This document shows positions 8,101 to 54,304 of a stretch of 64,000 nucleotides of DNA, in pieces (position 1 is the stretch's first letter; each line of letters begins with the position of its first letter). Made by a program: the position numbers and the translations under genes. Source of the DNA: Herbihabitans rhizosphaerae (GTDB lineage: Bacteria > Actinomycetota > Actinomycetes > Mycobacteriales > Pseudonocardiaceae); NCBI RefSeq assembly GCF_004216555.1, contig NZ_SGWQ01000015.1, positions 62,001 to 126,000 of the forward strand, read 5' to 3'. The notes under the pieces were generated by a model. The model worked only from the letters and a program-made list of their open reading frames with translations. It had not been told where the DNA came from and made no database searches.

Positions 8101-8964
8101 GTGCCCATGAGGCGATGGCTGATCGGCTGCGGACTCGTGATCGTCACGCTCGTGACGGTCTGGTTCCTCTTCGGACCGCTCACGAGCTGGATCGCCGGCA
8201 CCGAGGTGACACGGATGGACACCAAGGATCGATTCGCGGCGACCAGCACGATTCGAACCCAGATCGGCAGTCTGTTCGGTGGCCTGGCGGTCGCCGGCGG
8301 CCTGTTCTACACGGCCAGAAGGTACTTCCTCGACCGTGACAGGCAGTTCACCGAACGGTTCACCGCGGCGGTCGAGCATCTCGGGTCCGAGAACGTGACG
8401 GTCCGCGCCGGCGGCGTGGCCGCGCTCGATCGAATTCTGCGGGACTCCCCCGCCGACCGGAACCGAGTCCTCGACCGTATCGCCGGGTTTCTGCGCCAGC
8501 AGACCATTCGCGTGTCCGAACCGCTGCCCGATGACGTCATGGTGGCCGTCGCGGCGCTGCGCGTCCCGCGCAAACGGATTCGAGGAACGGCGGAGGAACC
8601 GCTCAACCTGACCGCGGTGCGCCTGCCGGGGGCCGACATGCGCCGCACCGCGATGCCGACGGCCCTCCTGGCGAAGGCCGAGCTCCGGGAGGCCGATCTG
8701 TCCGGAGCGAACCTCGCCGGCGCGAAGCTGGACGGCTCGACGTTGATCAACGCCAACCTCGCCGGCGCCGACCTGACAGCGGCGAGCCTGGCCGGGGCAC
8801 GGCTGTCCGGAGCGAACCTCACCGACGCCGTCCTGGCCGACGCGGACCTGTCGGAGGCCGACCTGACGAAGACGATCGGCCTCACCACCGAGCAGATCGC
8901 CTCGGCACGGGTCGACGACAAGACCCGGATTCCCGCCGGCCTCACCGAGGCGCGGGCCACATGA
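8101..8964 (+). CDS. Membrane-anchored pentapeptide-repeat protein
   Basis: A 287-residue protein. Two N-terminal membrane helices (about residues 5-30 and 52-74) lead into FTERFTAAVEHLGSENVTVR and an ALDRILRDSP region, the usual pre-repeat helical module of actinobacterial pentapeptide proteins. A(D/N)LxxA pentapeptides run from about 185 to 265 and should form a right-handed beta-helix. The start may be GTG 8101 or ATG 8107; neither has a clear ribosome site. It starts seven bases after the acyl-CoA dehydrogenase stop and overlaps the following gene as ATGA at 8961, so the two are translationally coupled. Role unknown. Confidence 0.8.
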   Translation: MPMRRWLIGCGLVIVTLVTVWFLFGPLTSWIAGTEVTRMDTKDRFAATSTIRTQIGSLFGGLAVAGGLFYTARRYFLDRDRQFTERFTAAVEHLGSENVTVRAGGVAALDRILRDSPADRNRVLDRIAGFLRQQTIRVSEPLPDDVMVAVAALRVPRKRIRGTAEEPLNLTAVRLPGADMRRTAMPTALLAKAELREADLSGANLAGAKLDGSTLINANLAGADLTAASLAGARLSGANLTDAVLADADLSEADLTKTIGLTTEQIASARVDDKTRIPAGLTEARAT

Positions 8965-10674
8965 CGACCGGGCCCGGGGTGGACGTGCCGGTCGGCCTCC
9001 GGGCCGGGCACTGGAACACAGTCAAGCCGGAACGGGTCGTACTCATCGTGGTGCACAATGTCACCACTGTCAGCCGGCTTCTCGATGTCATTCCCGCATT
9101 CGACAGCGATCCCCGAGTACAACTGGTGTTCAGCTCGAGCGGCTCGGACCCGTTTCAGCATGGACTCGACGAATTACTCGACCGACTCGGATACATCACC
9201 ATACCCTGGCACCAGGCGAAACAGACGAGATTCGATCTCGCCATTTCCGCGAGCCACCACGGCGGGTTGACCGACATCGAAGCCCCACTCGCCATTCTCT
9301 CGCACGGAATTGGGTATACTAAGTACTCACCCGGAGCCCGGAGCCCGGAGCCCGGAGCCCGGAGCCCGGAGCCCGGAGCCCGGAGCCCGGAGCATTTTCG
9401 GGCTTTCGTCGCAATGGGTCCTGTACGACGGCAAACCGATCGCCGACGCGTTCGTACTCTCCCACGACCACCAGCGTGACGCTCTCGCACGTGAGGCGCC
9501 CACCGCGGTTTCGCGCGCCGTCGTCGCCGGAGACCCTTGCTATGACAGGCTGTTGGCAAGCCTGGAGTTCCGCGATCGCTACCGCGGTGCCCTCGGCGTC
9601 GACGGGCGAACCGTGGTCATGGTGTCCTCGACGTGGGGACCTTCCTCGCTCATCGGCCAACACCCACAAATCGTCAGAGAATTGCTGCACGCGCTGCCGT
9701 CCGACTTGTATAAAGTAGTCGCGGCGCTTCATCCGAACACCTCTCACGGTCACGGCCCCGGGCAGATCAGACAATGGCTGGCCGACTGCCTCAGATCAGG
9801 ACTGACAATTCTTCCGGAAATAGACGGATGGCAAGCCGGCCTCATCGCGTCCGACGTTCTCATCGGCGATTTCGGCGCGGTGACCGGTTACCATGCCGCG
9901 TTACGAAAGCCCACGTTGCTTGGCGCTTTCGAAGAATACGACGTCGTCCCGGGAACGGCCGTTTCCACGATGGGTGACGCCGCGCCCAGGCTGCGCCCCG
10001 GCACGCCGTTACGGCAGCAGATCGACAACGCGGTCGAGGACCACGATCCCGATCGGTATTCGAGCGTTTCCGGCTTGGTCACCTCGGCGGCCGGAAGGTC
10101 GCTCGGTCTGCTGCGCGGCCTGTTCTATCGGCTGCTGAACCTGACGGAACCGTCCGCCGAGGCCCCGGTCGAGGTCGTGCCGAGCCCTTCCACACCACGA
10201 ACGCACCGCTGGGACTCGCCGCACGCGTACCGCGTGAGCGCCACTGTCGATGAGGCGCGCCGGACTATCACCGTCGTGCGTCGCCCCGCCGAGGTCGGAC
10301 TGACTCGGGCCGGCCGCCCCGCCACCCACATCGTCTGCTCGCGGGACTACCCGCTGCGATCCCTGCGCTCGCAGGCGTCGGTCATCACGGCACGACGGCC
10401 CGACCTCGCCGACCCGCCGAGCTGGCTGCGCGCCACGCTCGACCACAACCCGACCTGCCAAGTCGCCGCGCTGCTCGACCAGGGCATCTGCACCGTGCGC
10501 ACCAGCGACGGGTGGACCGCGACCCTGCGCGCCGCCGAGTTGCCCGAGGAGTCACTGCCGTCGGTGATCGTCGCCTGGCTGGCCGCCGGTCACCCGATCA
10601 CCGAGCTGCCGCCGTCGATCACGATCGAAATCGGCGCGCGGCGAGGCGAGGTGACGGTCGACCGGGCCTACTGA
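8961..10674 (+). CDS. GT-B polymer-transferase-like protein, frame split by a heptanucleotide tract (phase-off as sequenced)
   Basis: Two halves of one gene lie in different frames on either side of the repeat at 9330-9392. The first half (from ATG 8961) has a Rossmann-like start (ERVVLIVVHNVTTVSRLLDV) and HHGGLTDIEAPLAILSHGIG. The second half has VVMVSSTWGPSSL and AGLIASDVLIGDFGAVTGYH. These recall motifs of CDP-glycerol glycerophosphotransferases (TagF-like, GT-B fold), which build wall teichoic-acid-type polymers. As sequenced, translation leaves the tract in the wrong frame and stops at 9477-9479 after 172 residues. Eight or eleven copies would give one frame (568 residues with eight). 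Parts of the gene are AT-richer than its neighbours. Membership of the transferase family is inferred from motifs only. Confidence 0.75.
9330..9392 (+). repeat. Heptanucleotide tandem repeat (CCCGGAG)x9 inside a coding region
   Basis: Nine perfect, uninterrupted copies of a 7-base unit (63 bases). Three units make 21 bases, so the repeat reads as the heptapeptide PGARSPE. Because 7 is not a multiple of 3, each copy gained or lost changes the downstream frame. The flanks are clearly coding in two different frames: GYTKYS before, and SIFGLSSQWVLYDGKPI after in the shifted frame. Confidence 0.97.
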
Positions 10675-12623
10675 TCGTGCCCGTCGCGCAGTTCCTCGGC
10701 CTCGGCCCGGTACCGCGCCGCGTCGTCCGCGCGACCCGCCGCGTCCGCCGTCTCCGCCAGCCACTCGAGCAGGTTGATCGCGCGGCTGGCGAGGCGGCCG
10801 CGCAGGAACATCGCGCGCGCGTCCTCCCCAAGTCGAATCGCCGCATCGACATCACCGCGATCTCCACGGATCCGGGCGATCAGTTCGACGCAGAGCGCCT
10901 CGTTCACCTGCTCGTCACCGCGCTCGACGAAACCGGCATGGGCACGGATGGCCGCCTGCTCAGCCTTGTCGAGTTCCTCCGAAACGCCGCGCTTCCACGT
11001 GATCCGCGCGCAGTGCATGTCGATCAAGACCAGTGCGCGCCGCTCCTGCTCCGGATCCTCCATCAGCGGCACGGCCTCGCGAGCAAGGTCCATCGCCCGC
11101 TGCGCTTCGGCAAGATCACCACGTGACTCCAGAGCGAGCCCGCGCCATGTGTACAGGCTCTCGTCTCCCTTGCGATAACCGACCGCGAAGGCGAGGGCGA
11201 TGGACTCGTCGGCCAGATCGTGTTCGCCGATGCGCTCATACAGGCCGGCCAGGTCGCGGCGCAGTTGCCAGGTGACCTCAGGCTCGTGGTCCCTGTAGTC
11301 CAGCGCCCGGATGTACAGATCGATCACCACCGAGCAACGACCGGTCTGGTAGGCGAACGGCCACAACGCCGGCGGGAAGGCCGTCACCAGCCGGCGCTGA
11401 TCAAGCTCGGCGGCCCGGCGCGCAGATGCGATCAGGTTCGGCCACTCGCGATCCAATTCCTCGGCCGCGTGCACGCCGTCGCCGTCAAACGAGGGGTCGG
11501 CCTCGTCGTAGGCCCACTCCGCGCCGAACGGCTTGGGACGTTTCGAGTAGGCCTTGGCCAACGCACCGAGACGGAGCAACCGCGCCACGATCACCCGGCG
11601 CACGGTCTCGTCGCGCACCTCCTCGGCCAGGTCAGTCGACGCCACCTCCGTCGCGTACTCGCGCACCAGGTCGTGGTAGCGAAACAGGCCGCGGTGCTCG
11701 GGCCGCTCGGCGCCGAGGTCGACCACCATGAGCTTGTGCACCAGCCGACGCACGAGGTGCTTGGCGGCCCGGTCCGGCAGATCGAGCGCGGCGGCGGCCT
11801 CGGTGAAGCCGAAGTGCCGTCCGGGGATCAGGGCGAGTAGCGGATACGCACGCGCCTCGTCGGGATTCACGCCGCGGTACACGGCGTCGAAGAGCTTCTG
11901 GAGCGTGCCATCGATGTCGACCTCGTCGAGCACGCGGCCGGTGCGGAGCGCCTCGACGAATTCCTCCGGACTGTCGTCACCATCCCGCAGGCGTGCCGCG
12001 GCCATGGCGAGCGCCACCGGCAGGCCGCCACAGATCTTGTTCAACTCCGTGATCACCGGCCGGGCGACCGTCGCGAGCGGAGGATTGGCCAACGTCGTCA
12101 CGATCACTTCGGCCGCCGTATCGTTCAGGCCGCCGAGCATGATCGACTTGAAACGCGCGTTCTCCAACTCGGGGAGCCGCTGACGGCTGGTCACCAGGAC
12201 CGCCGACCGCGACATGTCACCGAGCAACTCCTTGACCTGGTGCGCGTCCCCGACGTCGTCCAGCACCAGCAGGATCCGTCGGCCACCCAGATGAGACCGC
12301 AGCGCGTCCACTCGTTGACGAGGATCGTCCGGCACGTTCTCGCGCAGCTGCGCCAGCAGCCGACTGGCCACGTCCTCGACCGGCGTCGCGCCGCCGGGCG
12401 CGGAGCCACCGCAGTCACAGAACAGCACGCCATCGGGATAGTCGTTCGCCAATGCGTAGGCGACCGCGACGGTCAACGTGGTCTTGCCGGCGCCGGGCTC
12501 CCCCGTGATCAGCACGAGCAGCGGCACGCGTTCCCGCACCGCGTCCACCTGCCACCCGGTCACCGTCTCGGTTTGCTCATCGCGACCGACGCACCACGGC
12601 TTCATCGGCAGTACGGTGCCCAC
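10668..12623 (-). CDS. STAND ATPase with NB-ARC domain and TPR-like C-terminus
   Basis: A 651-residue signal-transduction ATPase. The P-loop GEPGAGKTT is at residues 41-49, Walker B LLVLDD at about 118-123, and CGGLPVALA near 215 matches the NB-ARC GLPLA motif. The C-terminal half (about 400-645) is made of helical pairs such as LAGLYERIGEHDLADESIALA, typical of tetratricopeptide repeats that sense or bind partners. There is no N-terminal DNA-binding or effector domain, unlike SARP-type fusions. The start is GTG 12623 with AAAGGGG upstream. The gene converges on the phase-variable transferase and their ends overlap by seven bases. Such proteins act in regulation or phage defence; which applies here is not shown. 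Confidence 0.85.
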   Translation of the reverse strand: MGTVLPMKPWCVGRDEQTETVTGWQVDAVRERVPLLVLITGEPGAGKTTLTVAVAYALANDYPDGVLFCDCGGSAPGGATPVEDVASRLLAQLRENVPDDPRQRVDALRSHLGGRRILLVLDDVGDAHQVKELLGDMSRSAVLVTSRQRLPELENARFKSIMLGGLNDTAAEVIVTTLANPPLATVARPVITELNKICGGLPVALAMAAARLRDGDDSPEEFVEALRTGRVLDEVDIDGTLQKLFDAVYRGVNPDEARAYPLLALIPGRHFGFTEAAAALDLPDRAAKHLVRRLVHKLMVVDLGAERPEHRGLFRYHDLVREYATEVASTDLAEEVRDETVRRVIVARLLRLGALAKAYSKRPKPFGAEWAYDEADPSFDGDGVHAAEELDREWPNLIASARRAAELDQRRLVTAFPPALWPFAYQTGRCSVVIDLYIRALDYRDHEPEVTWQLRRDLAGLYERIGEHDLADESIALAFAVGYRKGDESLYTWRGLALESRGDLAEAQRAMDLAREAVPLMEDPEQERRALVLIDMHCARITWKRGVSEELDKAEQAAIRAHAGFVERGDEQVNEALCVELIARIRGDRGDVDAAIRLGEDARAMFLRGRLASRAINLLEWLAETADAAGRADDAARYRAEAEELRDGHDQ

Positions 12624-12689: not shown

Positions 12690-13745
12690 TCAACACCGCA
12701 TGTCCTTGATGATCACGCCGTCCAGGGCATCAGCGGCGTGTGCGGCACCGGCCGATGCCACCGCCTGCCGCTGGGCCGCCCGCAAGGTCGACCGGACAGC
12801 AGGGTCCTCGGCGAGGTGTTCGACCGTCGTCCGCAGCCGCCCCTGGCCTGGCCACGGCAGGGCGACTCCGCACCGATGTGCGAGCGATGCCAGGCGATTC
12901 TGCTCCCGGCTGCGCGGGACGGTGACCATCGGCACCGCGTGGACGATCGACTCCTGTACGGAGTTCATACCGGCATGGGTGACGAACACGTCGGCGTGTT
13001 CGAGCAGCTCGAGCTGAGGGAGCCACTGCCGGGCGATCACGTTGCCCGGCAACGCACCCAGTGCGCTGAGCGGGGTCTGCCCGGCGGCGAGCACCACGGT
13101 CCATTCCGTGTCGGCCAGTTCTCCGATCAGGGTGCGAAAGAATTGTCGTTCCCAGGTGTTGACGGTGCCGGGCGACACGAGCAGCGTGCGACCTCGCCGG
13201 ATCCGCTCCCACGGCAGACCGGGGTCGGGAGATCGCACGCCGCCGATCAACGGGCCGACGAACCGGTAGTGCGGACCGAACCGCTCGCGTCGCGGTTGCA
13301 GTTCCGGCACGGCGTTCACCAGGACCAGTCCCGATCCCCGACGAAGACGCGCGTACGTGGTCCAGAACGGCACGGTCGTCACACCCCAGCGGGTACCGAG
13401 CCGGCCCGCCCACCGCAGCCTCGGATCGGCGAGGACCACGTCCGGGGGCGCGGAATCGAACACCGCTCGGCAGGTGCTCGCCATCCGCGTCCACGCCTGG
13501 CGGCGGGCGACGGAGAGCGCGACCCGATCGATGCCTTTCCGGACGCCGTAACCAGGTTGGACGCGCACGTCGTGGTCGGTATCTCCGCCGACGAGTGACG
13601 CGCCGGCATCCGTCACGGCGGTCGCGTACCGGCGTCCTGCCACGACCGTGACCGCGTGGCCGCGAGCGATCAGCTCGGCTGCCACCGCCAAGAAAGGGTT
13701 CACGTGACCGCGCGCCGAGTAGGGAATGAGCAAGAACGAACCCAT
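12690..13745 (-). CDS. UGT/MGT-type glycosyltransferase (GT1 family)
   Basis: A 351-residue GT-B enzyme that would move an activated sugar onto a small molecule, often an antibiotic. The N-terminus ARGHVNPFLAVAAELIARGH is the acceptor-domain signature. The donor-site motif HAGMNSVQESIVHAVPMVTVP is near residues 257-277. It is slightly shorter than the usual 390 residues but has both domains and no frame breaks. The start is ATG 13745 with GAGG eight bases away. It lies beside remnants of a nonribosomal peptide locus, so it may be a surviving tailoring gene or a self-protection enzyme. Confidence 0.8.
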   Translation of the reverse strand: MGSFLLIPYSARGHVNPFLAVAAELIARGHAVTVVAGRRYATAVTDAGASLVGGDTDHDVRVQPGYGVRKGIDRVALSVARRQAWTRMASTCRAVFDSAPPDVVLADPRLRWAGRLGTRWGVTTVPFWTTYARLRRGSGLVLVNAVPELQPRRERFGPHYRFVGPLIGGVRSPDPGLPWERIRRGRTLLVSPGTVNTWERQFFRTLIGELADTEWTVVLAAGQTPLSALGALPGNVIARQWLPQLELLEHADVFVTHAGMNSVQESIVHAVPMVTVPRSREQNRLASLAHRCGVALPWPGQGRLRTTVEHLAEDPAVRSTLRAAQRQAVASAGAAHAADALDGVIIKDMRC

Positions 13746-13772
13746 CGATCCTCGACCGCGACCGTTGGCGAT

Positions 13773-14258
13773 CTACGGTGTCGCCGGCTGGGCGGCGTTG
13801 AGCGACTCGATGAACGTGGGCAGCTTCTGCCAGGTCTCCGGCGTGTAGAAGTGCCCGCCGGGCAACATGTCCCGTTCGGTCAGGCCCCTGCTCGGCGCGT
13901 TGGCCGAGAACACGACCAGCGCTTCGGGCGGCCGCTTTCCGGCTCGCTCGATTCCGGCGGTGACATCGAACGCCATCCAGCCGCCCATGCTGTGACCGAA
14001 AAGGACGTAGGGAATGTCGGTGGCGGACAACACCGCCTCGGTCGTGTCGGCGACCAGTTCGTCCCAGTTCTCGGCGAATTCGTCGGTGAACCTGCCCTCT
14101 CGGCCGGGATAGCAGATGGCGGCGAGTTCGTTCTCGGGGCCGATTTTGTCGTCCCATTCGAGGTAAGACGCCGCTCCCCCGCCACAGAAGCCGCGGCAAA
14201 TCAGTCTGCGAGTCGCGTCGGGGTTTCGCCGACGGCGAACAACAGTCGTGTCGTGCAT
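13773..14258 (-). pseudogene. Type II thioesterase with its middle deleted
   Basis: A 161-residue frame instead of the usual 240-260. The N-terminal part is normal for editing thioesterases of peptide/polyketide assembly lines: a GFCGGGAASYLEW oxyanion-type start, CYPGRE at 49-54 and the nucleophile GHSMGG (Ser90). The sequence then runs from VVFSANAPSRGL directly into LPGGHFY (His136), which in intact enzymes lies near the C-terminus. About 80 residues, including the catalytic Asp region and the lid, are missing while the frame is kept. It is therefore probably inactive. The ATG at 14258 is used; GTG six bases upstream is an alternative. Confidence 0.75.
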
Positions 14259-14355
14259 TGTCACAACCCGCACCCTAGCGCACCGAACGCGGCCCTCGTG
14301 GGCGTTCGGAGCCTGTACGCTGTCGTGGGTTCTGACACGGGGAAGAGTTTCTCGA

Positions 14356-15172
14356 GTGATCGATGATCAGCAGTCGCATGCCGCCGCGCACCTGGTCGAC
14401 ATGGACGCGTTTCCCGCCTCCAAGGTGCAGGAACAGCTGTTCTTCGCCCAGCAGGCGCTCGGCGACGCACCGACGTATCACGTTCCGCTGTTCCCGCGCG
14501 GGTCCGCCGATCTTGACGTCGAGACGCTGCGCCGCGCAGTCGAACGAGTGGTCGCCCGGCACGAGGCGTTGCGCACCAGATTCCTCGCGTCCCGCGAGGG
14601 TCTGCGACAGGTCGTCGACGACGACATAACCTGGAATCGGGGCCGCTGTTTCGCGCCGGTGTGTTCTCCTGCCGCGATTCCGAGCCGATCGTGATGCTGT
14701 GCGCGCACCACGCGATCTGCGACGGCTGGTCATTGAAGGTATTGCTGGAAGAATTGACCGAGTGCTATCACGCTTTCCGGTCGGGCGATTCTCCGGTATT
14801 GGATGACGATCCTTTCCAGTACGGTGACTATTCGCTGTGGCACAACGAACGGCTGGACAGTTCGGCGGCCGACGAGCAGCGGCGTTCTGAACCGAGGCGC
14901 TGGCCGAAAGCCTGCCGGTGCTGGACCTCCCCGGAGACGCGCTCGCCGAAACCGGTGACGGTCTCGCGATCTTCCAGGCGCTGACCGATCTCCTTGCGGC
15001 ACACCAGGTTCGCCCGTACGCCGGCCCGGTCACGTTCGTCCGAGGCGACGGCACGCCGGTCGAGCGGTGGCGCGCGACCCTCGGATCGATCACCGTGCAC
15101 CCGGTGGACGCCGACCACTACGCGATCATCCGCGCTCCCGAGCTGGCCGGCGTCCTGGACGCAGATCCGTGA
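14356..15172 (+). pseudogene. Collapsed NRPS gene: condensation-domain start fused to thioesterase end
   Basis: From GTG 14356 a condensation-domain N-terminus is readable (DAFPASKVQEQLFFAQQALG, then VERVVARHEALRTRF). Near 14640 the frame shifts at a run of four G. The next frame carries GPLFRAGVF and the core motif HHAICDGWS (HHxxxDG). A second shift near 14885 leads into LPVLDLPGD, and after a large deletion the frame ends in a thioesterase C-terminus (RPYAGPVTF, then W-RATLGSITVHPVDADHY with the catalytic-type His). At least adenylation, carrier and most thioesterase sequence is gone. It is divergent from the thioesterase remnant 98 bases away. Confidence 0.75.
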
Positions 15173-15635
15173 CCGGCAAGCCATGCCCGGCGCGCACCCG
15201 CGCGGCCACGAGTGAGCGGTGACATGCCTCCGGGTCGCGCTCGACGCAGAGCAGCACGGTCGTCGAGTCGTCCGGAAGCTCGGCCACGAGCGCGCCGAGG
15301 TCGAACGGGTCGAGGATCTCCCGGGTGTAGCGCTCGGCGTACTCGGGCGCGAGCGCGACGCGGTTGCGCTTGCCCACGCCCTGGCGGTCGTCCTCGCGGT
15401 ACTGGAGCTGGCGCAGATCGGTGGTCGGCGCCAGCTCCTTCACGTGCCGGTAGGCGATGTCCGCGGCGGCGAGCGCGCCCTGGAGCCGCGCCGAGTTCGC
15501 CCATGCGTACTCGGGTCCGCGAACGCCGCGGCGCTGGCGGAGGTCGAGCAGCAACCCCACGCCCTCGCCGGTGAGCTTCTCGACGAAGGCTTCGACCGTG
15601 AAGCCGTAGACGCCGATCGTCGCGACGCGTCTCAC
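15126..15635 (-). CDS. DUF488 domain protein
   Basis: A 169-residue protein of the DUF488 family. The N-terminus is a beta strand ATIGVYGF. The family-defining motif VLLCVERDPEACHRSLVA is near residues 127-144, with Cys and His arranged as in other members. The start is GTG 15635 with AGCGGGG upstream. Its 3' end overlaps the NRPS remnant antisense by about 47 bases, which suggests that the remnant was trimmed down to this gene. Function of the family is unknown. Confidence 0.8.
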   Translation of the reverse strand: MRRVATIGVYGFTVEAFVEKLTGEGVGLLLDLRQRRGVRGPEYAWANSARLQGALAAADIAYRHVKELAPTTDLRQLQYREDDRQGVGKRNRVALAPEYAERYTREILDPFDLGALVAELPDDSTTVLLCVERDPEACHRSLVAARVRAGHGLPVTDLRPGRRPARERG

Positions 15636-15811: not shown

Positions 15812-16164
15812 TAGGGTACGAGTGCCGGCTGGTCCACGGCCCACAGCCAGGACCCGTCCGGCTGGCGGCGGGCGATCTCGACGGTCACCTCGCCGGTGGT
15901 CAGCGTGGACGCCGTGAGTGCCAGGTCGCCGCTCACCAGCGCCAGGTGCTGCCTGCCCGGCAGGAGCACCGGCGCGGCCGCGACGAACTGCTCGTACACC
16001 TTGCGGATCTCCGCGTGTCCGGTCGCGAGGTTGCCCGGCGGGAACGCCAGCACGGCGTCCGGCTCGTACAACGCCACCAGTCCGTCGACGTCACCCGCGT
16101 TGGCGCGCTCGATGAAGTACTTGCCAAGGTCGTTCGGCTCAGTGGCCACTGTCTTGCTTGTCAT
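15811..16164 (-). CDS. SnoaL/NTF2-like fold protein (117 residues)
   Basis: A small cone-shaped-fold protein. YFIERANAGDVDGLVALYEPDAVL is the classic NTF2/SnoaL start, and the C-terminal strand is GSWLWAVDQPALVP. Members are isomerases, hydrolases or binding proteins with varied ligands. The start is ATG 16164. It is divergent from a WYL regulator 61 bases away, with a perfect inverted repeat between them, so that regulator probably controls it. Its stop codon lies at the edge of the MITE-like repeat, so the C-terminus might have been altered by that insertion. Confidence 0.78.
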   Translation of the reverse strand: MTSKTVATEPNDLGKYFIERANAGDVDGLVALYEPDAVLAFPPGNLATGHAEIRKVYEQFVAAAPVLLPGRQHLALVSGDLALTASTLTTGEVTVEIARRQPDGSWLWAVDQPALVP

Positions 16165-17241: not shown

Positions 17242-17298
17242 CGGGTCGAGCCCGCTGAACCCTTTAGCCGCGCTAACGGGTTCAGCGGGCTCGACCCG
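17242..17298. terminator. Very strong bidirectional hairpin
   Basis: Perfect 21-base arms at 17242-17262 and 17278-17298. The 15-base middle can itself pair (TTAGC-CGC-GCTAA), so nearly the whole 57 bases can fold into one stem. It follows the WYL gene by 44 bases. It may be a terminator or the scar of a repeat element. Confidence 0.6.
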
Positions 17299-17316: not shown

Positions 17317-17472
17317 CTAGACAGCGCCGGCCAGCAGGCCGATAACCATTTCCGTCGAGCGGTCCAGACAGATCGCCACGACGTCGTCCGCGCCGACGCC
17401 GAGCCCGCGCAGGTGGTTGGCGAGTTGGTTGGCGCACCGGTCCAGCTCGGCATAGCTCAACTGCTCGTGCCA
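17317..17472 (-). pseudogene. NRPS adenylation-domain scrap (A1-A2 region)
   Basis: Translated on the minus strand it reads QLSYAELDRCANQLANHLRG and then GVGADDVVAICLDRSTEM and VIGLLAGAV before TAG. This is the N-terminal core of an amino-acid-activating adenylation domain. Only about 50 of some 500 residues remain, broken at both sides: a hairpin region on one side and a YibE/F fragment on the other. It probably shares its origin with the NRPS remnant 2.2 kb away. Confidence 0.75.
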
Positions 17473-17904
17473 CTCGCCGTACTGGCCGGACTCTTCGCGC
17501 TCGCCGTGATCGCACTGTCCCGCTGGCGAGGGCTCGCGGCACTCGGCGCGCTCGCGGTCTGTCTGCTCGGGCTGACCGAGTTCGTGCTGCCGGCGATCAT
17601 CGAGGGCAATGATCCGCTCGTGGTCGCGGTGATCGGCTGCACGGTGATCATGGTGGTCGCGCTGTACCTGACGCACGGCGTGAACGCGCGCACCTCGGTG
17701 GCCCTGGTCGCGACGGTGGCGAGCCTCGCGATCACCGGCGTACTCGGGCACTTCGCCCTCGCCTATGCCGGCACCGCGCTCCCAATGCTGCTGTTGTTCA
17801 CCCTCACCGGTCTGCCCGGCGAGCACGCGCTGGCCGCGCTGGCCGTCGGCAACCGGCTACCGTTGCCAAATGAGAGCGGTCACTTGCGAGAAGGCGCGCC
17901 TTGA
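17459..17904 (+). pseudogene. YibE/F-family membrane protein with internal deletion
   Basis: The frame begins mid-protein at LLVPLAVLAGLFALAVIALS, then has GLAALGALAVCLLGLTEFVL and the conserved YLTHGVNARTSVALVAT. After ITGVLGHFA it jumps to LAYAGTALPMLLLF, which in intact YibE/F proteins sits near the C-terminus. The start and roughly 100 or more central residues are missing. It abuts the adenylation-domain scrap at its 5' side and runs into the start of the alcohol dehydrogenase gene. Confidence 0.6.
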
Positions 17905-38126: not shown

Positions 38127-38221
38127 CGCGAGTCCCGCGCTGTGCACCGCCGAGTCCCGCGCTGTGCACCCGCGCCGGTGCCTGAGCGCGGGACTCACCG
38201 TGTCTGAGCGCGGGACTCGCG
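38127..38221. repeat. GAGTCCCGCGC repeat cluster inside the mce operon
   Basis: Two direct copies of GAGTCCCGCGCTGTGCACC (38130-38148 and 38152-38170) are followed by two copies of TGAGCGCGGGACTC (38183-38196 and 38205-38218) in inverted orientation. The outermost 15 bases pair perfectly. Similar units occur at 53787-53830. The array can fold into a strong hairpin between mceC and mceD. Confidence 0.85.
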
Positions 38222-53786: not shown

Positions 53787-53830
53787 CGCGAGTCCCGCGC
53801 CCCGCACCAGCGAGTCCCGCGCCCTGCACC
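53787..53830 (+). repeat. GAGTCCCGCGC direct repeats
   Basis: CGAGTCCCGCGCCCCGCACC is followed three bases later by CGAGTCCCGCGCCCTGCACC. These are the same family as the units in the mceC-mceD gap at 38127. They lie between the SIP gene and the GH59 remnant. Confidence 0.8.
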
Positions 53831-54304
53831 AAGTACGCGATCCGGGACTGGCCCGCGTGGTCGACGTGATCGGCAGTCACTACCCGGGTGGCCAGGTGCC
53901 GGCCGAGGCGCACAAGTCCGGCAAGCCGGTGTGGTCATCGGAGGACGGCCCGTGGACCGACAAGTGGAACGACTTCGTCGGCGGTGCGCACAACGCGCTC
54001 GGCAGCACGCACAACACCAACTACGTCGACGGAAACAGTGGATTGATGCGGGCGAACGAGCCGTGGTCCAGGCATTTCCAGGTCACCTCACCGAACGCAA
54101 CCGGCTCGTCAAGGGCACGCCGTGCTGCCGGCCAACCAGTGGCACACGATCCGAATACCGTTGCGCGGCAACAATATTCAGGTGTTCATCGACGGGACGA
54201 AGGTCGGCGAGGCCACCGAGTCGGCCTACGCACGCGGCCGCACCGGCATCGGCACCGGATGGAACCGAGTGCGGTTCGACGACTTCTCCGTGACCCCCGG
54301 ATGA
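53830..54304 (+). pseudogene. GH59 galactosylceramidase remnant with large deletions
   Basis: The first frame reads VVDVIGSHYPGGQVPAEAHK and SGKPVWSSEDGPW (the Glu of SSED fits the GH59 nucleophile), then NYVDGNSGLMRANEPWS. In intact enzymes some 20 residues separate NYVDG from the LMxANEPWS block, so part is lost. Another large gap leads in a different frame to the C-terminal lectin-like end (QWHTIRIPLRGNNIQVFIDG, then GIGTGWNRVRFDDFSV) and TGA at 54302. No signal peptide or N-terminal barrel remains. Confidence 0.78.

Follow-up and report, generated by a model that had tools for sequence, protein, structure and literature searches.

The stretch between positions 13773 and 15172 of the window (the 64 000 nucleotides analysed here, contig C15:62001-126000 of a draft genome of 6.6 Mb in 25 contigs) raises the question of whether it holds the remains of a nonribosomal peptide synthetase (NRPS) locus and, if so, whether the intact glycosyltransferase gene beside it is the last survivor of that locus, as had been suggested from the letters alone. 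We translated the frames of this stretch and scanned them for Pfam domains, and we searched for an intact cluster both through the glycosyltransferase (41 genomes and an 84 980-species collection, 40 loci) and through the thioesterase (120 genomes and 390 genomes of the same family); among the genomes searched, the genus is represented by the source genome alone. The reading that we prefer, with a probability of about 0.88, is that the stretch contains what is left of a ruined NRPS locus and that the glycosyltransferase is probably not a remnant of it but part of a recurrent block that also comprises an NTPase gene and a third gene.

The NRPS remnant occupies three frames of the forward strand. 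The first (14359-14628) matches the start of a condensation domain (PF00668 model positions 4-77, E = 6.7e-11, 42.0 bits) and the second (14661-14884) matches model positions 124-195 (E = 1.1e-12, 47.9 bits; template in G075). Both scores are above the curated Pfam cut-off of 30.6 bits, and both pieces were also recovered by a whole-genome scan. The second piece carries the HHxxxDG active-site motif as HHAICDGWS (approximately 14706-14732), which the sequence-only reading had correctly reported together with a condensation-domain start. A single open condensation frame of about 450 residues is absent, the frames being separate and the Pfam coverage stopping at model position 195. An intact version of this NRPS did not turn up; the pieces share about 29-46% identity with the other condensation domains that we examined. 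The third frame (14891-15172) joins the end of the condensation remnant, which we place by eye at LDLPGD, to what appears to be the C-terminal end of a thioesterase, namely the 84-residue frame that follows LDLPGD (14918-15172, with its stop at 15172). Pfam returned nothing for this putative thioesterase end. In its three best relatives among the matches listed from 120 genomes (E values of 5.9e-5, 6.8e-5 and 1.35e-3), it can be aligned to the final 57-79 residues, 10-21 residues short of their stops, and the ends of all three aligned frames (G021, G032 and G018) are PF00975 thioesterase domains, preceded in one of them by a trace of a carrier domain. Of the seven loci inspected for this frame, three show thioesterase ends and two do not; at the threshold used, the other two had no match. 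Relatives were not seen to carry the same short frames as conserved genes; the three strongest matches to the 84-residue frame, among those listed from 120 genomes, lie in frames of 6864, 681 and 2648 residues, and the weaker ones, some of them in short frames, look like chance.

Two frame changes fall within 14359-15172, in the number that had been reported as frameshifts. However, approximately 75-100 nt are absent between the first and second condensation pieces (as judged from the Pfam positions and from one template, in G075), so the first break is a deletion and not a bare frameshift. Programmed frameshifting was considered as another account of the broken frames and rejected, since neither the missing sequence nor the loss of the middle of the gene is in keeping with it. 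From its sequence, the NRPS gene seems to have kept only some 200 residues at the start of its first domain and about 60-80 at the end of its last one, in line with the earlier description of a locus collapsed to its two ends. As read, the NRPS cannot function, because it has no adenylation or carrier domain and retains only a minor part of the condensation domain, and the peptide assembly line is almost certainly dead.

An intact cluster with the same flanks (glycosyltransferase and DUF488), which the sequence-only reading had proposed as the reference for defining the deletions, was found neither by the glycosyltransferase-based nor by the thioesterase-based search, and the size of the NRPS deletion could therefore not be derived. 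Among the loci examined, the glycosyltransferase is combined with the thioesterase or with DUF488 only in the source genome's own loci. The DUF488 gene itself is intact (15126-15635, reverse strand; PF04343, E = 2.5e-15); we considered it as a cluster member and rejected it, as it has no relative in any locus examined outside the source genome.

Is the glycosyltransferase the last survivor of the cluster, an enzyme that once decorated its product? The gene is indeed intact (12690-13745, reverse strand, with the Pfam families UDPGT and EryCIII-like_C above cut-off) and is separated by 27 bp from the thioesterase, with which it shares a strand. It resembles macrolide-type glycosyltransferases (NCBIfam MGT, E = 1.1e-56, below cut-off), and approximately 5-10 kb from a relative of 24% identity in Paenibacillus aquistagni (L068) there are matches to condensation and adenylation domains. 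Its three best relatives in the 41 genomes are closer, at 41-46% identity, two of them aligning over nearly their full length. Against the role of survivor stands, first, the gene that follows it in the window, which encodes a STAND-type NTPase (10668-12623, reverse strand; NB-ARC, PF00931, E = 1.7e-9): eight other genomes (G017, G102, Crossiella S99.2, G236, G182, G125, G049 and G083) have an NTPase match that adjoins a match to the glycosyltransferase. In five of these (G102, Crossiella S99.2, G236, G182 and G125), as in the window, the order is glycosyltransferase, NTPase and a convergent third gene, the third gene of G017 being on the other side. Other relatives of the glycosyltransferase (in G006, G015 and Crossiella SN42) do not have that NTPase alongside, so the block is recurrent and not universal. 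Secondly, a profile search found no condensation domain in nine neighbourhoods of glycosyltransferase relatives (L033, L034, L085, L086, L087, L152, L244, L245 and L248, the last three of about 7 kb each). The profile, built from seven domains of which one came from the control L091, recovered both positive controls (L091 and L142) and both pieces in the window. We thus consider a survivor of the NRPS cluster to be unlikely and, on balance, assign the glycosyltransferase to the NTPase block and not to the dead NRPS. It should be noted that one of these loci (L152, G102:C31) has its glycosyltransferase match in two frames and an NTPase match that crosses five stops beyond a 558-residue open frame, which shows that decay can affect the block as well.

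The thioesterase that diverges from the NRPS remnant (13773-14273, reverse strand, 166 residues) is, according to the PF00975 match and to DNA and protein alignments, a type II thioesterase pseudogene with an in-frame internal deletion. It covers model positions 2-108 of 226 (E = 1.8e-22), compared with 2-212 for a relative, and the DNA alignment gives a loss of 276 nt (92 codons), in frame and identical in size against all nine intact relatives. The internal loss had been noticed before, at about 80 central residues; its size is 92. The nucleophile elbow GxSxG is kept as GHSMGG and the catalytic histidine motif as GGHFYTPE, while a G-A-D-D stretch conserved in all nine intact relatives, which we take to be the region of the catalytic acid (Asp), lies in the deleted segment. 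Because this stretch and the lid region are lost, the truncated enzyme is predicted to be inactive. At the junction (13859-13866, reverse strand), which was delimited by overlapping blastn pieces and alignment, the window sequence can be matched, in several relatives, to either flank of the segment that was lost. The deletion may thus have been guided by a direct repeat, short and imperfect. A 28-nt inverted match of 79% that touches this junction (13839-13866 with 16030-16057) was taken as chance.

The closest relatives of the thioesterase, at 66-68% identity over the shared part, are in five genomes of one genus (g8), followed at 55-61% over the shared part by seven genomes of a second (g15) and one of a third (g19). 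A condensation or adenylation match lies near the intact relative in all 13 loci fetched, and the one whose domains were scanned (G333) has adenylation, TauD and NRPS genes alongside. Could the shortened thioesterase be a functional mini-protein, with only the NRPS dead? The deletion is in frame, the frame is open, so that a short product is possible, and the serine and histidine motifs are kept; moreover, the codon-position GC of the thioesterase and of the relic frames is near that of genes, from which it also follows that the decay may be recent. However, the protein has lost the G-A-D-D stretch and no longer has an NRPS to work with, and the 22 other matches listed at E ≤ 1e-28 among the 390 genomes of the family all have stop-to-stop frames of at least 249 residues (249-817, compared with 197 in the window). 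We regard a working mini-protein as quite improbable.

The wreckage extends beyond this stretch, as an adenylation-domain relic of about 50 residues (17317-17478, reverse strand; PF00501 model positions 19-65 of 384, E = 1.3e-12, found again by the whole-genome scan) and, beside it, a truncated relic of a YibE/F membrane protein (17413-17904, forward strand; PF07907 model positions 1-95 of 241, E = 3.7e-20) sit 2 kb from the NRPS wreck. Neither of them is mentioned in the sequence-only reading. The YibE/F relic is without about 88 internal residues compared with a Nonomuraea locus (L263), according to translations read by eye, the automatic alignment having missed the second half. Between a WYL regulator and the adenylation relic there is an inverted repeat (17242-17298), possibly a terminator, whose 27-nt arms agree at 96% and enclose a loop of 3 nt. 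A second NRPS locus of the genome (C3:167-174 kb, L100) also looks broken: it has pieces on both strands, including an adenylation domain with two stops, a condensation domain matched to position 283 only and, after the end of an adenylation domain, a thioesterase whose match stops at position 131. That the wreck is an assembly error, in which the repeated modules of an NRPS were collapsed, would fit a draft of 25 contigs and the repetitive nature of NRPS modules in general, but it is hardly credible given that nothing else in the genome matches 13750-15200 at the DNA level and that repeat collapse leaves the two frame changes, the clean 276-nt deletion and the YibE/F relic unexplained.

A mobile element or repeat was also considered as the cause and rejected, the genome having no second copy of the stretch; the repeats at the deletion junctions are weak ones only. 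Two 22-nt tandem duplications with similar units occur far apart in the window (38129-38170 and 53788-53831). For the NRPS wreck that we prefer, the course of events would be that the pathway stopped being useful and that successive deletions then accumulated in the locus, at least one of them probably between short direct repeats. The relic adds one more case to a known type, that of NRPS loci that have died, and its death by internal deletion is unsurprising. It does carry a caution for cluster mining, since thioesterase and condensation hits do not make a cluster here. The block next to the relic, with its repeat array, is of greater interest.

The third gene of this block is a transferase-like gene (8961-10674, forward strand; PF04464, E = 0.002, below cut-off), recognized from its frames and from a family search, the two halves of which (8961-9329 and 9400-10674) are out of frame with each other. 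Between them Tandem Repeats Finder detected an array of 9.1 copies of CCCGGAG (9330-9393, forward strand), a candidate slipped-strand switch: a non-triplet tandem array lies inside the coding region and puts the two parts of the gene in different frames. Its site, site 1 hereafter, is between the motifs HGIGYTK and FGLSPQW. Arrays of 7-nt units of other sequence occupy the same site in G017 (13 copies), G102 (11 copies) and Crossiella (five copies). Searches with two in-frame members of the family retrieved nothing from Pfam or NCBIfam at E = 0.01, and a profile of 22 third-gene sequences retrieved from the PDB one meaningless match (E = 0.44). In the source genome there are three further members of the family: one with 13 copies of GAAACCG, in frame (C15:26453, L189), one with an array interrupted by N (C2:153788, L185) and one with an 8-nt array near its start (C5:79360, L191).

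The family was found in 74 of 397 genomes of the same order (E ≤ 1e-20). We took 92 loci, namely the best 90 of 134 family matches plus the G017 (L085) and Crossiella (L033) loci, and an NTPase match is convergent within 4.5 kb in 70 of them, many of these matches being weak (tblastn E of 1e-4, with flanks mostly of 2.5-3 kb). At a threshold of three copies, 29 of the 92 loci have an array at site 1, 21 have one upstream, 40 have none and two have short repeats elsewhere; one locus counted among the 21 (L209) is by its sequence a site-1 array of another copy. A frame test was applied to all but three loci (L185, with N inside its array, and L186 and L209, which are without the first half), and it includes the array of L188, which with 2.3 copies is not in the census. 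The loci with a site-1 array are in frame in 15 cases and out of frame in 13 (n = 28), compared with 61 of 61 in frame for the loci without one, some of which carry upstream arrays. The Fisher value for this association (2.7e-8) is only indicative, since the loci are related. Of the 28 site-1 arrays, 23 have 7-nt units and five have 8-nt units; among the upstream arrays, the unit measures 5 nt in one case and 11 nt in another. In the 2.42 Mb of loci, which were chosen in part around the third gene, arrays of at least four copies number 39 with a period of 7, 11 with a period of 8 and six with all other periods from 4 to 12. A copy number that differs between close relatives and shifts the frame was seen in one pair only: G061 (L249) has five copies of CGGAGAC and is in frame, whereas G433 (L250) has six and is out of frame, although the two loci share 98.2% identity across 8.2 kb, in an alignment with a total of nine gap openings.

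The codons of HGIGYTK are AT-rich where arrays exist, with a GC3 of 0.45 (27 loci) against 0.83 in the no-array group (34 loci, including L185, which does hold an array; 29 loci yielded no such motif). This is partly background, as the 20 codons before the motif differ too (0.74 against 0.89). By eye, the seven HGIGYTK codons of the site-1 loci, which immediately precede the arrays (9300-9330 in the window), are alike at the DNA level, including a −10-like hexamer, and many upstream arrays follow a TACAAT-like element, some of them right after a possible leaderless ATG.

We lean towards the view that the glycosyltransferase is part of a phase-variable system, as yet undescribed, that occurs in actinomycetes and in which the NTPase gene is convergent with the array-bearing transferase-like gene and the number of repeat copies sets the frame of the latter; such a system could act by varying the polymers of the cell surface or by controlling a defence against phages. 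The array would be carried by about half of the family loci examined, either between HGIGYTK and FGLSPQW or near the start of the gene, just downstream of a −10-like TAYAnT element, and its units, mostly of 7 or 8 nt and of a length that is not a multiple of three, would vary in sequence between genomes. If the arrays switch in culture, a repeat-driven on/off switch beside a STAND-type NTPase would be common to many actinomycetes. No description of this repeat system was found in the literature searched, which included passages of PMC6749651 and PMC3711429, as well as PMC7159879, a result that is not proof of its being unpublished.

How do these elements compare with known systems? The NRPS relic shares with the condensation domains (PF00668) and terminal thioesterases (PF00975) of NRPSs the HHxxxDG motif and the alignment with thioesterase ends, but it lies in three frames with most of the protein absent. 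Similarly, the window thioesterase shares sequence and the serine and histidine motifs with the type II thioesterases RifR (PDB entry 3FLA) and surfactin TEII (PDB entries 2RON and 2K2Q), its best sequence match being PDB entry 7E3Z (E = 1.4e-39), but is without 92 residues, among them those of the lid region and of the G-A-D-D stretch. The NTPase has its best NCBIfam relatives among NB-ARC TPR proteins of the AfsR and HaaT types (HaaT, E = 6.1e-45; AfsR, E = 5.5e-35; both below the NCBIfam cut-offs), except that the domain scan found no DNA-binding domain in it. In a comparison with PADLOC, its residues 13-108 resemble mad8 (E = 3.4e-7), and there are two other matches with E values of about 0.007, while the glycosyltransferase and the two in-frame third-gene members have no PADLOC match at E = 0.01. 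STAND-type NTPases include both regulators and immune sensors, and since this one resembles the regulator AfsR, the RiPP protein HaaT and mad8, a role in regulation is as open as one in defence.

Phase variation by simple-sequence repeats is known in Haemophilus and Neisseria, and the Pgl system of Streptomyces coelicolor is phase-variable. With Pgl the block has in common its actinomycete host and phase variation, known for Pgl and a candidate property here, although no shared gene was recognized; PMC4365076 deals with Pgl as a phage-defence system. With the Haemophilus and Neisseria systems it shares a non-triplet tandem array in a coding region and the occurrence of in-frame and out-of-frame copies. 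It differs from them in its actinomycete hosts, in units mostly of 7 or 8 nt, in the fixed site at which arrays of differing unit sequence recur, and in being known from sequence alone.
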